Below, piece by piece: positions 49,747-54,681 of a stretch of DNA of 64,000 nucleotides. How positions within the stretch are numbered: position 1 is the first letter of the stretch; every line of letters starts with the position of its first letter. Source of the stretch: an archaeon (GTDB lineage Archaea > Thermoproteota > Nitrososphaeria > Nitrososphaerales > Gagatemarchaeaceae); NCBI GenBank assembly GCA_021819035.1, contig JAKASL010000001.1:868001-932000 (forward strand), written 5' to 3'. A program made the position numbers and the translations under genes. Below the pieces are notes generated by a model that saw only the letters and a program-made list of their open reading frames with translations, ran no database searches and was not told the DNA's origin.

Positions 49747-50151
49747 CTATCTCGCGACCTCTTCCTCGGCCGACGCCATCCTGTTGAGCCTGAGCAGCCC
49801 GGGGGCCGGGTACGGGATCTTCAGCGTTCCGCAGAGGAGGTACATGGTGGGGTAGACCCGCTGGTATATCTTCATGAAGAGCGACGGGCTGCCGTCCCCC
49901 TCCTTCGCGGCCAGGAGCTGGTCTATCTCGTCGTCCTTCCCTTTCAGCGCGGCCATCCCGGAGACGAACACCCGGGCCGCCGCAGGCTGCGTCTCTACGT
50001 CCATGGAGAACTTCAGGTTCAGGAACCCGGGGCCGCGGTCGGCCTCGGTGATGGAGGAGTTGACGTTGAAGGTGACCTGGGTCGACTCGTTGGCCTCGTC
50101 TGACGTCTTGTTCGCCTCTATCCCCTTGACAGACACTTCTATCTCTACCAA
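49747..50151 (-). CDS. SecB-like small protein, divergent from the MoxR operon
   Basis: A 134-residue protein with the strand pattern VTFNVNSSI, FLNLKFSMDVET, ARVFVSGMAALKG, and a helix ending KIYQRVYPTMYLLCGTL, then IPYPAPGLL. That arrangement recalls SecB-fold chaperone-like proteins, but identity is low and I am not sure. TTG start at 50151, about 30 nt from a cgttaaatac TATA box on the minus strand. Facing the MoxR/VWA operon across a shared promoter region suggests a functional link. Confidence 0.45.
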   Translation of the reverse strand: MVEIEVSVKGIEANKTSDEANESTQVTFNVNSSITEADRGPGFLNLKFSMDVETQPAAARVFVSGMAALKGKDDEIDQLLAAKEGDGSPSLFMKIYQRVYPTMYLLCGTLKIPYPAPGLLRLNRMASAEEEVAR

Positions 50152-50255: not shown

Positions 50256-51821
50256 ATGTCCACCGCCGACGACGCACCGGGAACAACGAGCATCAGGGCG
50301 GACGGGGACAACGCCAGGCTGTCGGTCAAGATTTCGCTCAAGCCCCGCTTCGGGAAGGAGGACCTGAAGGCGAAGTACAAGGTCGGGAAGTACAGCCTCT
50401 CCGAGGGCTACTCTATGGGCCCCTCCCTGCAGGCCCTCGTCCCCAAGGGGACCCCCGACTACGTCGAGCACGGGGAGAACTACGTCGAGAGGATAATGCG
50501 GGCGCTGTACCACTTCAAGCAGTGCGCGCTCATAGGGCCCTCTGGGACGGGCAAGAGCGTCGTCGGGTCGGAGCGCCTGGACGTCATCTGCAGGGGGGAG
50601 CGGCTCGAGTCCACCTTCGACGACCTGTTCGCGCGCCTCGCCGCGCCGGGTCCCTCGATGGCCTCCGCCGACGGCTGGGAGTCGATCGAGATCAGGGACG
50701 GGGAGCTGATGGTCCTCTCCTTCGAGGGAGGGAGCGGCGAGGTCACCTGGCGCGCGCCGTCGTTCTTCGCCAGGTCGCGCCACGAAGGGGAGGTGGCGGT
50801 CATAACCACGTCTTCAGGGAGGAACGTAGCAGCCACCCCGGACCACTCCTTCGTGACAAGGAACGGGACGGTCAGCGCCTCGGAGCTCAGGCCAGGGGCC
50901 CTGGTCCCGGTAGCGAAGGAGGCGCCGCGGCTCGCCAGCGTCCCCACAGGCGACGGGAGGTCTGTCACCATCAGCCTCGCCGCCGACGCCTCCTGGGAAG
51001 AGATCGCGGAGGTGGCATACGAGCGGTACAGCGGCTGGGTGTACGACTTCGAGGTGCCCGGGAACGAGACTTTCGTCGCCGGGGACGGGGTGGTTACCCA
51101 CAACACCCACATCACATACCTGGTCTCTGAGCTCGCGGGCCTCCCCCTCTGGGAGATCAACTGCGGGCTGCAGACGTCGGTCTACGACCTCTTCGGCAGG
51201 TTCGTCGGGCTGGGGAAGGAGAACTGGGTCGACGGGCAGATAGTGTCGTGGTGCAGGTACGGTGGGATCCTCTACCTTGACGAGGCCAACATGATGAAGC
51301 AGGACATAGCCACCAGGCTGAACCCCATCCTCGACACCAGGGGGCACATGGTCCTCAACGAGAGGGACAACGAGGTGATACCGAGGCACCCCAACGGCTA
51401 CGTGATAATCAGCATGAACCCCTACTCGGCGGAGTTCGCCGGGACGAAGCCGCTCAACGCCGCGTTCCGCCGGAGGATGACCGTCTGGATAGACTTCGAC
51501 TACCTCAGCGTGGGGAGCAAGATAGCCCCCGACGAGGTGGAGATGATAGCCCAGAGGGCGAAGATAGACGGCCACGTCGCCGAGAAGCTGGTGAGGGTGG
51601 CGGCGGAGATACGCAGGCAGTACAAGACAGGGGACCTCCCGTACGCCCCTTCCGTCGGCGACCTGGTCAACTGGGGGACTCTGGTCGCGGACGGGCTGAC
51701 CCCGGCCCTGGCGGCCGAGGAGACCATCATAGCGCTCACCGCAGACGACCCCGAGGTCCAGAACAACGTCAGGAGGGTGGTCAGGATGGTGGTCGGTGAC
51801 GCGAAAGCAGGGTCCAAATGA
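50256..51821 (+). CDS. MoxR-family AAA+ ATPase interrupted by an intein
   Basis: A 521-codon precursor. The mature ATPase (338 residues after splicing) is a CbbQ/NirQ/MoxR-type AAA protein: Walker A GPSGTGK-T is restored by joining residue 100 to 284, and ISMNPYSAEFAGTKPLNAAFRRR is the sensor 1/arginine-finger region. Walker B is ILYLDEANMMKQD. Such ATPases remodel or activate partners through a VWA protein, encoded next in an ATGA overlap. The insert at residues 101-283 is an intein (separate entry). ATG start at 50256, 28 nt from its TATA-like box. Confidence 0.9.
   Translation: MSTADDAPGTTSIRADGDNARLSVKISLKPRFGKEDLKAKYKVGKYSLSEGYSMGPSLQALVPKGTPDYVEHGENYVERIMRALYHFKQCALIGPSGTGKSVVGSERLDVICRGERLESTFDDLFARLAAPGPSMASADGWESIEIRDGELMVLSFEGGSGEVTWRAPSFFARSRHEGEVAVITTSSGRNVAATPDHSFVTRNGTVSASELRPGALVPVAKEAPRLASVPTGDGRSVTISLAADASWEEIAEVAYERYSGWVYDFEVPGNETFVAGDGVVTHNTHITYLVSELAGLPLWEINCGLQTSVYDLFGRFVGLGKENWVDGQIVSWCRYGGILYLDEANMMKQDIATRLNPILDTRGHMVLNERDNEVIPRHPNGYVIISMNPYSAEFAGTKPLNAAFRRRMTVWIDFDYLSVGSKIAPDEVEMIAQRAKIDGHVAEKLVRVAAEIRRQYKTGDLPYAPSVGDLVNWGTLVADGLTPALAAEETIIALTADDPEVQNNVRRVVRMVVGDAKAGSK
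50556..51104 (+). other. Mini-intein in the Walker A motif of the MoxR ATPase
   Basis: A 183-residue in-frame insert between K100 and T284, splitting GPSGTGK/T. Block A starts SVVGSERL with Ser as the first nucleophile. Block B has TPDH (T194-H197), block F is GWVYDFEVPGNETFVAGDGV, and block G ends VVTHN with penultimate His and terminal Asn. The next residue is Thr, a valid downstream nucleophile. No LAGLIDADG or HNH region is visible, so it has lost, or never had, a homing endonuclease. Splicing appears intact by these residues, although untested. Confidence 0.92.
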
Positions 51822-53503
51822 ACATCCTGGAGTACGCCTGGACCAACTTCTCCAGCGTCTCCGGGGTGGACCAGAGCAGGTTCAGGCTGGTCCTGAGCGA
51901 GACGTCGGCCAGGCCCGCGGTGGGGCTCGAAGGGGAGGGTTTCGTCGTCAAGGTCCCGGTCCCCAGGAAGGAGAAGGAGGGGGTGGTGTCGGTGCAGGGC
52001 CTCTTCGCGGACGCAGACGACCAGGGGTGGGCGATGCTCTGGCGCCTGTTCAGGGCGTCCCTGTACCACGCCGCGTTCCACGTGGCCTACGGGAACCTCA
52101 AGCCCCTGGCGAGGTGGGCGAAGGGGAAGGAGCGCTTCCCCGCCATCTTCACGGTCTCCCTGCTGGAGGACTATCGCATCACCCTCGCCGCCAGGGAGAA
52201 GTGGCCGGGGGTGATGACAGACGTGGCGTACGCCAACGCCGTGGGCGCTATGAGGATGCCTGAGCTGGACGACATAGAGAACAGGGGCCTGAGGACGTCC
52301 GCCAAGATGCTCGCCTCCCTCTGGGGTGTCTCCCCGGCCAAGGGGGGGCGGGTAGACGAAGACCAGGCGATCCTGGCCCTCACAGAGAAGGTGCGCGGGA
52401 TGGTCGAGAACTCGGTCGAGGACCCTGAGAACCCGCTCCTGCCGAAGGCAGCCGACCTGGTATACAGCCAGTTCAACAAGGTCGTCCTCCCCCAGATCCC
52501 CGCCTTCCCCCACACGGAGGCGCACTCCGGGGACTCGCTGTTCAGGGACCACCTCGAGGCGAAGAAGGGGAAGGGGGGCCCGAAGCTGGCCGGCGCCCTG
52601 GCGGCGATAGGGGTGGAGGGGGGCGGAGTGGAGCTCCCCGACGAGCCGGAGTTCAAGGACACATTCGCCGCCCTCCAGGACGCCCACGCGAAACGGCAGA
52701 GGGCGATCGAGTACTACAGCAAGCTCATGGCGAGCACGAGGCTCGACGGGGTGTCGTTCCCGGACGGGGACTACGCGGCGTTCCTCCGGGCCAGGGCTGA
52801 CCTCGCCGGGCCCATCAGGAACATCAAGAACCAGCTCCTGGCCATCAAGAACGTCGCCGACGAGGAGCCCGGGAAGCTCAGCGGCCAGGTCGACATACCG
52901 ATGGCCATGCAGGTGATCGCATCGGGGTCGCAGAGGTCGGACGTATTCATCAGGGAGGAGCCGATACTGAAGGACGAGGCCTGGGCCATCCTGGTCGACG
53001 CGAGCAGGAGCGTCTCGAAGTCTTCCATGGAGATGCGCGGGATAGCGACGTGCCTCGCGGAGGTGGCATCGGCCGTGATGAGGGAGAGGAGCAGGTGGGC
53101 CCTCTACGGGTTCAACGACTCCCTGCAGATAGTGAAAGACTTCGACGAGCCGTACTCCATGGAGGCGAAGTCCAGGATAGGGGGGCTCTCCCAGAAGGGG
53201 GGGACGTACCTCCCCGACGCCCTCTCCGTGGCGTCGAGGGCCCTCAACTCCAGGCCGATAGAGAGCAAGTACCTCGTCGTGGTCTCGGACTGCCTCCCCA
53301 CAGGCTACGCGGGGATAGAGGAGGAGCTGGTGGAGAAGGTCAAGGACGCCGGGAAGATGGGGGTAATGCTGGTCGGGATAGGGGTGGAGAGCCCCGAGGT
53401 CAAGAAGTACTTCAAAGTGAACTCTGTCCTCGACACCCCGTACGAGATGATGAAGTTCTTCACGAAGGCGTACATGGAGCTGTCTGGGGCCCCCGAGTCG
53501 TGA
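51818..53503 (+). CDS. VWA-domain protein, partner of the MoxR ATPase (CbbO/NorD/CoxE-like)
   Basis: A 561-residue protein. The N-terminal 370 residues are mostly helical and unfamiliar. The C-terminal von Willebrand A domain has a complete metal site: DASRS (D394, S396, S398), Thr in GGTYLPDA (about 463), and Asp in VVSDCLPTG (about 491). MoxR ATPase plus VWA pairs act together as metal-dependent remodelling or cofactor-insertion chaperones. The ATG overlaps the ATPase stop (ATGA at 51818-51821). Confidence 0.88.
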   Translation: MNILEYAWTNFSSVSGVDQSRFRLVLSETSARPAVGLEGEGFVVKVPVPRKEKEGVVSVQGLFADADDQGWAMLWRLFRASLYHAAFHVAYGNLKPLARWAKGKERFPAIFTVSLLEDYRITLAAREKWPGVMTDVAYANAVGAMRMPELDDIENRGLRTSAKMLASLWGVSPAKGGRVDEDQAILALTEKVRGMVENSVEDPENPLLPKAADLVYSQFNKVVLPQIPAFPHTEAHSGDSLFRDHLEAKKGKGGPKLAGALAAIGVEGGGVELPDEPEFKDTFAALQDAHAKRQRAIEYYSKLMASTRLDGVSFPDGDYAAFLRARADLAGPIRNIKNQLLAIKNVADEEPGKLSGQVDIPMAMQVIASGSQRSDVFIREEPILKDEAWAILVDASRSVSKSSMEMRGIATCLAEVASAVMRERSRWALYGFNDSLQIVKDFDEPYSMEAKSRIGGLSQKGGTYLPDALSVASRALNSRPIESKYLVVVSDCLPTGYAGIEEELVEKVKDAGKMGVMLVGIGVESPEVKKYFKVNSVLDTPYEMMKFFTKAYMELSGAPES

Positions 53504-53640: not shown

Positions 53641-54180
53641 ATGCCCGCAGCCCAAGAAGCGAAGGAGAAGGACGCCCCCGATGTGCAGGAGACAGACCCG
53701 CAGGAGGTCATCCGCGAGATGCGCGAGATACAGAGCGACGCTGCCCAGCTCTCGGAGATAGAAGAGTTGGAGTACTCTCAGACTATGAAGCTGGTCGAGT
53801 CCATGAAGGTCATCCAGGCGGGGATAGGGACGGCGATCTCGATACGCCCTGTCTCCCTGGGCGAGCCGCTGAACCACGTCAAGCAGGCGATCATAGGGGC
53901 GGACGCGGTGATCATAGGGCTGGACGCCGACGGGAAGCCTTTCTCCAAGCCCCTGTCGGACCTGAAGCCGGTCGACATACTCAACGTGGTCCAGGAGTGG
54001 GCCCCGAAGCTGAGGGTCAAGATAGCGGAGCGGAAGAAGGGGGCCGAGGAGAGGCTCTACCTGGTGGAGAAGATCCTCCGCGAGTTCAAGGAGGGGGGGA
54101 CGGCCGTCAAGGACTCCCGGAAGCAGTTCTACGATTCAGTCGAGTCAGACCTGGTCAAGGACACCCTGGAAAAGGAGTAG
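53641..54180 (+). CDS. Helical protein, unknown, linked to the MoxR/VWA module
   Basis: A 179-residue protein. The first 60 residues are highly charged and likely coiled-coil (EVIREMREIQSDAAQLSEIE). The middle has a compact segment, IGTAISIRPVSLGEPLNHV and AVIIGLDADGKPFSKPLSDL, and the end is helical and charged. Not recognised. Position directly after the VWA gene and before another unknown suggests a part of the same remodelling system. Confidence 0.6.
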   Translation: MPAAQEAKEKDAPDVQETDPQEVIREMREIQSDAAQLSEIEELEYSQTMKLVESMKVIQAGIGTAISIRPVSLGEPLNHVKQAIIGADAVIIGLDADGKPFSKPLSDLKPVDILNVVQEWAPKLRVKIAERKKGAEERLYLVEKILREFKEGGTAVKDSRKQFYDSVESDLVKDTLEKE

Positions 54181-54186
54181 GCCGCC

Positions 54187-54681
54187 GTGCAGCGCGGAAA
54201 CCTCGAGCTGAACTCGGGACTGGTGAAGTTCCCGAGCAGGGAGAGCGCCACTGCGTACCTGGAGGCGCTCCTGCAGTACTACAAGGCGAGGCAGGAGGAG
54301 TACGGGCACCAGCTCGGGGAGCAGCTGAGGAACCCGCAGGAGGCCGCCCCCCAGAAGGACAAGAAGGGGGACTCGAAGAAGGACAAAGGGGGGCAGCAGA
54401 CGCCGCGCGGCTGGACAAAGGTGGGGAGCCTCCCGGTGAACGTGTCAGACCCCCAGGGGGCGCTCGCCCAGGTGACGCTCAGGATAGTGGACGACTACAA
54501 GTCGCGCGCGGAGAGGGTATCGGAAGCGCTGAAGTCGTTCCAGGAGGTGGACGCGCTCAGCCAGGCAGGAACGAAGTCGTACACGCTCTTCGTCTTCAGG
54601 GGGGTCCCCGAAGGGGTGATAGTGGAGAGCGCGCCGAAGAGAGATGCCTTCGCGTTCACCGCGAGGTTCAGGGCGACGTAG
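54187..54681 (+). CDS. Unknown protein with Lys/Gln-rich linker, linked to the MoxR/VWA module
   Basis: A 164-residue protein. The N-terminal 45 residues are helical (SATAYLEALLQYYKARQEE). Residues about 50-75 form a low-complexity Lys/Asp/Gln linker (KDKKGDSKKDKGG), and the C-terminal half is an alpha/beta domain (VTLRIVDDYKSRAERVSEAL, then YTLFVFRGVPEGVIVESAP). GTG start at 54187, 6 nt after the preceding gene. Not recognised. Its end touches the broken VapC gene on the other strand. Confidence 0.6.
   Translation: MQRGNLELNSGLVKFPSRESATAYLEALLQYYKARQEEYGHQLGEQLRNPQEAAPQKDKKGDSKKDKGGQQTPRGWTKVGSLPVNVSDPQGALAQVTLRIVDDYKSRAERVSEALKSFQEVDALSQAGTKSYTLFVFRGVPEGVIVESAPKRDAFAFTARFRAT

Follow-up and report, generated by a model that had tools for sequence, protein, structure and literature searches.

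A reading frame at positions 50256–51821 (+ strand) of the window, the 64,000-nucleotide stretch of archaeal DNA analysed here, encodes 521 amino acids in its open-reading-frame translation and raises the question of whether the 183 codons that split the P-loop of its ATPase are a splicing intein, and how such an element came to lie there. The precursor reads ...CALIGPSGTGK / SVVGSERLDV...TPDH...WVYDFEVPGNETFVAGDGVVTHN / THITYL..., where the slashes mark the junctions, and Walker A is split exactly between Lys and Thr (GPSGTGK/T). The insert occupies codons 101–283 (50556–51104), exactly 183 codons in frame. Its removal in silico leaves 338 residues, and a natural homologue with an empty site is just as long; the proposal of the earlier note, a mini-intein placed exactly inside Walker A, is thus borne out. 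Third-codon-position G+C is alike in the intein (0.907) and the two exteins (0.92 and 0.908), so that composition does not mark the intein as foreign or newly arrived. The features of the locus are the following.

50256..50555, + strand: N-extein, 100 aa, of a CbbQ/NorQ-type AAA+ ATPase, ending ...GPSGTGK (open reading frame; aligned to the empty-site homologue L012)
50535..50555, + strand: N-terminal part of Walker A, GPSGTGK, with Lys as residue −1 (sequence, alignment)
50556..51104, + strand: mini-intein, 183 aa, Ser1 to Asn183 (profiles, alignment, AlphaFold2, Foldseek)
50556..50591, + strand: block A / N1 region SVVGSERLDVIC with the nucleophile Ser1 (aligned to full-length same-site inteins)
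50835..50846, + strand: TPDH of block B, Thr94 to His97 (sequence, alignment)
50928..50993, + strand: linker, where full-type relatives have an endonuclease region of ~280 aa (alignment, Pfam of two relatives)
51036..51083, + strand: WVYDFEVPGNETFVAG, block F (sequence, alignment)
51090..51104, + strand: VVTHN, the end of block G, with His182 and Asn183 (sequence, alignment)
51105..51818, + strand: C-extein, 238 aa; Thr+1 completes Walker A, followed by the AAA_5 core and CbbQ_C (open reading frame, Pfam, alignment)
51273..51290, + strand: Walker B region, YLDEAN, with Asp342-Glu343 of the precursor (invariant in an alignment of 33 sequences)
51818..53500, + strand: partner gene with a C-terminal VWA domain (Pfam VWA, E 9e-7), whose DASRS agrees with the DxSxS metal-site motif

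The insert matches the Pfam Intein_splicing model PF14890 with E 5e-15 and 56 bits (cut-off 35.8) and lies above the NCBIfam cut-offs for TIGR01443 and TIGR01445 (intein_Nterm and intein_Cterm). The PF14890 match begins at insert residue 71 and that of TIGR01445 at residue 48; the first 47–70 residues are left uncovered, and this N-terminal part is backed by alignment with same-site relatives. Profile comparison to solved inteins retrieves PI-PkoII (E 4e-18) and the Pho RadA intein (E 1e-13). The latter is also the best Foldseek match (E 8e-13, TM 0.77/0.81) of the AlphaFold2 intein model (pLDDT 90.9, pTM 0.85), in which confidence is lowest at residues 131–140 (mean pLDDT 72). In the AlphaFold2 model of the whole precursor (33 sequences) the AAA part is poor, with pLDDT below 50 at residues 20–99 and 284–415.

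A class 1 intein has an N-terminal Cys or Ser, TxxH in block B, a C-terminal HN and Cys, Ser or Thr at position +1. The insert has Ser1, TPDH, His182-Asn183 and Thr+1, is in frame, is missing from homologues and has flanks that form an intact protein; an intein (HINT) fold is predicted by AlphaFold2 and Foldseek. The splicing motifs listed in the earlier note (Ser1, TPDH, VYDFEVPGN, HN and Thr+1) are all present, and Ser1, Thr94, His97, Asp164, His182 and Asn183 are invariant in the six aligned same-site inteins. The note's claim that an endonuclease domain is absent likewise stands: with 183 aa, the insert gives Intein_splicing as its sole Pfam match at E 0.1, with no homing endonuclease domain, and faces a gap of ~280 aa against full-type relatives, so that it qualifies as a mini-intein. 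Cys or Ser at position 1 is named as a class 1 feature in a passage of PMC6195587. On sequence grounds, we assign the insert to the class-1-type mini-inteins and place it at the Lys/Thr junction of a CbbQ/NorQ-type P-loop; autocatalytic splicing is predicted for it.

The host extein contains AAA_5 and CbbQ_C in Pfam, the latter C-terminal, as in the CbbQ/GvpN/NorQ (CGN) subfamily of the MoxR AAA+ family, and its nearest PDB relatives by sequence are midasin, CbbQ and NorQ (5C3C, 6L1Q, 9QH4). The narrow MoxR model AAA_3 (PF07726) has no match at the locus (E 0.001), in the precursor (E 0.1) or in the empty homologue (E 0.01), and the NCBIfam equivalog models GvpN and CobS match far below their cut-offs. 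The designation as a MoxR ATPase therefore holds in the broad sense, that of the CbbQ/NorQ type, but not in the narrow one. The suggested MoxR/VWA module is confirmed by the adjoining VWA-domain gene: of the named loci (best 80 of 138 relatives), 67 have a relative of the VWA partner starting no more than 700 nt past the ATPase match, and in 71 the sequence continues downstream for 1500 nt or more. Comparable ATPase/VWA pairs are CbbQ/CbbO and NorQ/NorD. By analogy with the MoxR-vWA chaperone-cochaperone pairs named in a passage of PMC7824862, the two proteins probably act together as a protein-remodelling chaperone. Small conserved reading frames flank the module at 49747–50151 (−), 53641–54177 (+) and 54187–54678 (+), with tblastn matches in 44, 23 and 12 of the 80 named loci, respectively; the three have no Pfam match at E 0.1. 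In G005, a single-contig genome of the same genus with a completeness of 100, the ATPase is unmatched at E 0.001, and the module therefore looks dispensable at genus level.

In the proposed mechanism, attack by Ser1 and transfer to Thr+1 would be followed by cyclisation of Asn183, aided by His182, which would excise the intein and yield a 338-aa ATPase acting with the downstream VWA protein. Before excision the precursor is very probably unable to use ATP normally, since the P-loop intein of P. horikoshii RadA disrupts ATPase function, according to a passage of PMC6195587; the dependence of the ATPase on splicing is thus a reasonable expectation.

Intein occupancy was followed in a census of 46 family genomes (31 of the genus and 15 from the rest of the family), many of the gene-less ones being incomplete MAGs. 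The gene is present in 18 (13/31 and 5/15), of which 13 are occupied (G000, the window genome, G004, G008, G009, G013, G017, G019, G022, G029, G030, G031, G037 and G040) and five are empty (G016, G023, G024, G035 and G039). G008 and G037 were counted from what lies at a contig end, the N-extein plus part of the intein; in G013 and G029 part or all of the N-extein is missing. Six alleles are minis of 183 or 184 aa (G000, G004, G009, G013, G030 and contig C199 of G019), that of G009 being identical to that of G030. Eight are of full type: five are complete, with 462–465 aa (G017, contig C54 of G019, G022, G031 and G040), and three are cut by contig ends, with 454 aa (G008), 360 aa (G029) and 324 aa (G037) present. 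Bin G019 (L010, L052, L055) combines a mini with a full-type allele and also has a third fragment, one that falls short of the site, and for this reason looks like a mixture of co-occurring strains.

Beyond the family, empty sites prevail, a point that the earlier note had proposed to check in MoxR homologues of related archaea. In an order-level sample the gene is found in 87 of 400 genomes at E 1e-50 (16 of the family and 71 from other families), and all 71 of the latter match across the site unbroken, as judged from the match table. Among the named loci (best 80 of 138 relatives), 74 read GK-T without an insert and six are occupied, the six being taken as family genomes already in the census. 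Site calls were made by reading the residues after GK, BLAST alignments running over the junction at occupied loci; such a reading of 119 loci, in which some sites are held twice, gave 93 empty, 23 occupied and 3 unresolved. In a phylum-level sample of 398 genomes, 58 of them matching the G022 precursor at E 1e-20, no further occupied site occurs among the matches listed. The open frames listed at extein matches reach at most 431 aa, the window genome apart (from the table, not base by base), and G723 (842 aa) matches the G022 precursor in the intein part only.

The family full-type inteins share the identical site and the Ser...HN/T ends with the window intein, to which they are 37–44% identical in shared columns; unlike it, they are ~280 aa longer and, in four of the five complete ones, have Cys3. 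The two submitted to Pfam both have LAGLIDADG_3 and Hom_end. The second LAGLIDADG motif reads GDGW or GEGW in six full-type inteins and is replaced by GFFDGGGG in G008 (L050) and G029 (L053), in which the endonuclease is therefore probably dead. The window mini-intein would derive from a same-site LAGLIDADG intein of ~463 aa through loss of the endonuclease region. In the intein tree, which leaves out the G009 sequence identical to G030's, five minis are set apart by a branch with 99/98 support; this is compatible with a single endonuclease loss, the root being a midpoint root and no proof. Empty, full-type and mini alleles occur side by side within one archaeal family, in line with the homing-cycle model. 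Between the full-type G031 and the empty G039, identity is 95.7% along 3.66 kb spanning the site and 92.9% along another 0.43 kb; even close relatives therefore differ in carrying the intein, a difference that fits gain as well as loss. With the full-type G022 intein as the one query for both collections, viral_contigs gave no match and 50,697 phage records yielded one weak match (24% identity, E 3e-6, a Bacillus phage terminase), which leaves a viral or phage source unsupported.

Selection on the minis bears on whether splicing is still required. The minis diverge by up to ~56% in sequence while the splicing residues stay. The G004–G030 intein pair is under purifying selection, as judged from dN 0.087 and dS 0.552 (dN/dS ~0.16), and ratios of ~0.47 in G000–G013 (0.055/0.117) and G000–G004 (0.5/1.076) indicate weaker selection, all these values being rough owing to codon bias and saturation. 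An inactive insert, or a permanent domain of a protein that functions unspliced, is very improbable: it would leave the P-loop split, and it agrees poorly both with the invariance of the splicing residues in six of six aligned inteins and with the low G004–G030 ratio, although the two higher ratios speak less strongly. Third positions differ between G000 and G004 at 100/183 sites in the intein vs 59/229 in the C-extein; with the intein the more diverged, it is not evident that every mini simply descended vertically together with its host gene.

P-loop inteins of this kind have several known counterparts. The RadA inteins of P. horikoshii and Thermococcus sibiricus (2LQM, 4E2T) are likewise P-loop mini-inteins in an ATPase, but they differ from the window intein in host protein, share ~20% identity with it in the structural match and begin with Cys instead of Ser. 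The Pho RadA intein has a variable loop at the former endonuclease place, as described in a passage of PMC5790916. TerL1-a, MCM-a and VMA-b are similarly inserted directly after the conserved Walker A Lys (passages of PMC5050341 and PMC10643990), and mycobacterial DnaBi1 is a P-loop mini-intein in Walker A (passage of PMC6195587); all four sit in other hosts, and DnaBi1, unlike the window intein, is of class 3 with a redox-sensitive Cys. A passage of PMC5050341 calls the K/T P-loop insertion classic and places ~70% of inteins in ATP-binding proteins. The kind is therefore already known, and the CbbQ/NorQ-type host is the new part. CbbQ, NorQ and midasin are homologues of the extein by sequence (AAA_5 plus CbbQ_C), and no intein in these proteins turned up in the searches made. 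No description of an intein in a MoxR, CbbQ or NorQ ATPase was found in open-access main texts, which is not a claim that none has been reported; in the parts covered of PMC10638138, PMC2147016, PMC7824862 and PMC4499774, intein and ATPase-family words occur only in separate contexts. Literature matches for acid-mine-drainage archaea include none naming inteins among those listed.

The earlier note regarded the intein as a possible control point, and conditional splicing retained as a switch of ATPase/VWA activity (by temperature, acidity, substrate or partner binding) finds some encouragement in the structural comparison. The closest solved structure is the P-loop mini-intein of P. horikoshii RadA, which in its native exteins requires heat or ssDNA for splicing, a reaction that also depends on the former-endonuclease loop (passage of PMC5790916); a temperature or substrate version is possible by this analogy. 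The retention of the splicing residues despite mini divergence points in the same direction, but plain selection for splicing would conserve the motifs likewise. The redox version fares worse: the nucleophiles Ser1 and Thr+1 are not thiols, no Cys is conserved among the minis, and the only Cys of the window intein, C12, is missing from four of the six, so that a thiol-redox switch is unlikely. A DnaBi1-like Cys toggle was considered and judged unlikely, the needed residues being missing in the window intein. Empty sites in the relatives G016, G023, G024 and G039 and the absence of an ATPase match in the complete genome G005 argue against an indispensable switch, and a regulated role is, on balance, unlikely.

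The mini allele of G013 departs from its genomic background. The flank and background of G013 are 91–95% identical in DNA to the empty-site G016 (90.9% over an unrelated 6.1-kb stretch), against 77.3% over 4.1 kb and 72.7% over 0.84 kb to the window genome, and yet the G013 mini-intein is 93% identical to the window mini-intein. Accordingly, G013 groups with G016 in the extein tree (100/100) and with the window genome in the intein tree (99/98). Four-fold sites differ between window and G013 at 11/100 positions in the intein and 51/103 in the C-extein (Fisher p 1.4e-9). G004–G030 lacks such a contrast (34/91 vs 48/109, p 0.39), and the cross-group mini pairs display the opposite contrast or none: G000–G004, 38/61 vs 47/108 (p 0.025, the intein being more different); G000–G030, 26/55 vs 46/108 (p 0.62); G013–G004, 38/61 vs 55/106 (p 0.2). 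Vertical descent with loss in G016 was rejected, as it would not yield the low synonymous divergence of the G013 and window inteins.

The junctions locate the change more closely. In the 35 nt that the contig offers upstream of the G013 intein, all five informative sites are window-like. On the downstream side, G016-like states occur at positions 12, 18, 22, 36, 42, 75 and 78, a window-like one at 105 and neither at 24; the informative sites in the 687 nt compared comprise 59 that are G016-like, 13 that are window-like and 8 that are neither. The switch from window-like to G016-like thus falls within 11 nt of the 3′ junction. A G016-like chromosome seems to have received the intein and its upstream flank from a window-like lineage, which suggests that G013 recently acquired an endonuclease-free intein horizontally.

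How this acquisition came about can be answered only tentatively. In a trans-homing event, a full-type same-site intein would have cut the empty allele and the mini allele would have templated the repair, with the tract ending within 11 nt; homing of endonuclease-free inteins with outside help is named as a research need in a passage of PMC10643990. Ordinary homologous recombination with no endonuclease involved is a possible route of similarly tentative standing. It would accommodate the window-like sites in the 35 nt upstream, a tract whose upstream end lies outside the G013 contig and which may be long, and the 13 of 80 downstream informative sites that are window-like; moreover, a passage of PMC4071816 describes mini-inteins as mainly vertical but allows that they may travel along with the host gene. 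The downstream breakpoint no more than 11 nt from the site, on the other hand, would fit repair of a break at the site better than a random crossover. An assembly artefact, in which metagenome reads of a window-like and a G016-like strain were joined into one contig, is improbable as the source of the mosaic. The contig is of low coverage (3091 bp, title coverage 2.14) and breaks off 35 nt before the intein, as a chimera might, but the window genome and G016 share 11 nt past the junction, a short bridge for an assembler, which argues against a chimera without being decisive.

Taken together, it is highly probable that the locus carries a mini-intein whose splicing restores ATPase/VWA action, which arose by endonuclease loss and coexists with other alleles, and that at least one mini allele, that of G013, was acquired recently by horizontal transfer. 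The anatomy, empty sites, full-type relatives, allele distribution and mosaic contig are read from sequence, and from them we infer splicing, the precursor's loss of ATP use, the role of the VWA partner and the direction in which evolution proceeded. With a CbbQ/NorQ-type ATPase, the known kind of P-loop intein gains a further host; of greater use is that a single site within one archaeal family offers a series of alleles: empty, full-type with endonuclease sequence, full-type with the second LAGLIDADG motif changed (two alleles) and mini. If trans homing is true, mini-inteins would be mobile wherever endonuclease-bearing alleles co-circulate, beyond being a late stage of the homing cycle.

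The window genome also contains other inteins. On contigs C1–C3 of G000 (L158–L168, 1.67 Mb), eleven further reading frames have Intein_splicing matches, eight of them above the Pfam cut-off; the eleven include GlmS-like, Top6A, CDC48, actin-like, eIF2 gamma, radical SAM, PolB and RadA proteins. The three below the cut-off are an Fe-S protein, an archaeal helicase and an NDP-sugar epimerase, and another weak match lies at C3:302164 (E 0.003). RadA (L166:795-3356) has a second P-loop intein in this genome, GEFGSGK/C...HN/S, with Cys1 and LAGLIDADG_3. The epimerase intein (L168:1554-3527) matches no LAGLIDADG model at E 1e-4; its inner part matches DUF559 (E 4e-6), and it possibly carries a different type of endonuclease.
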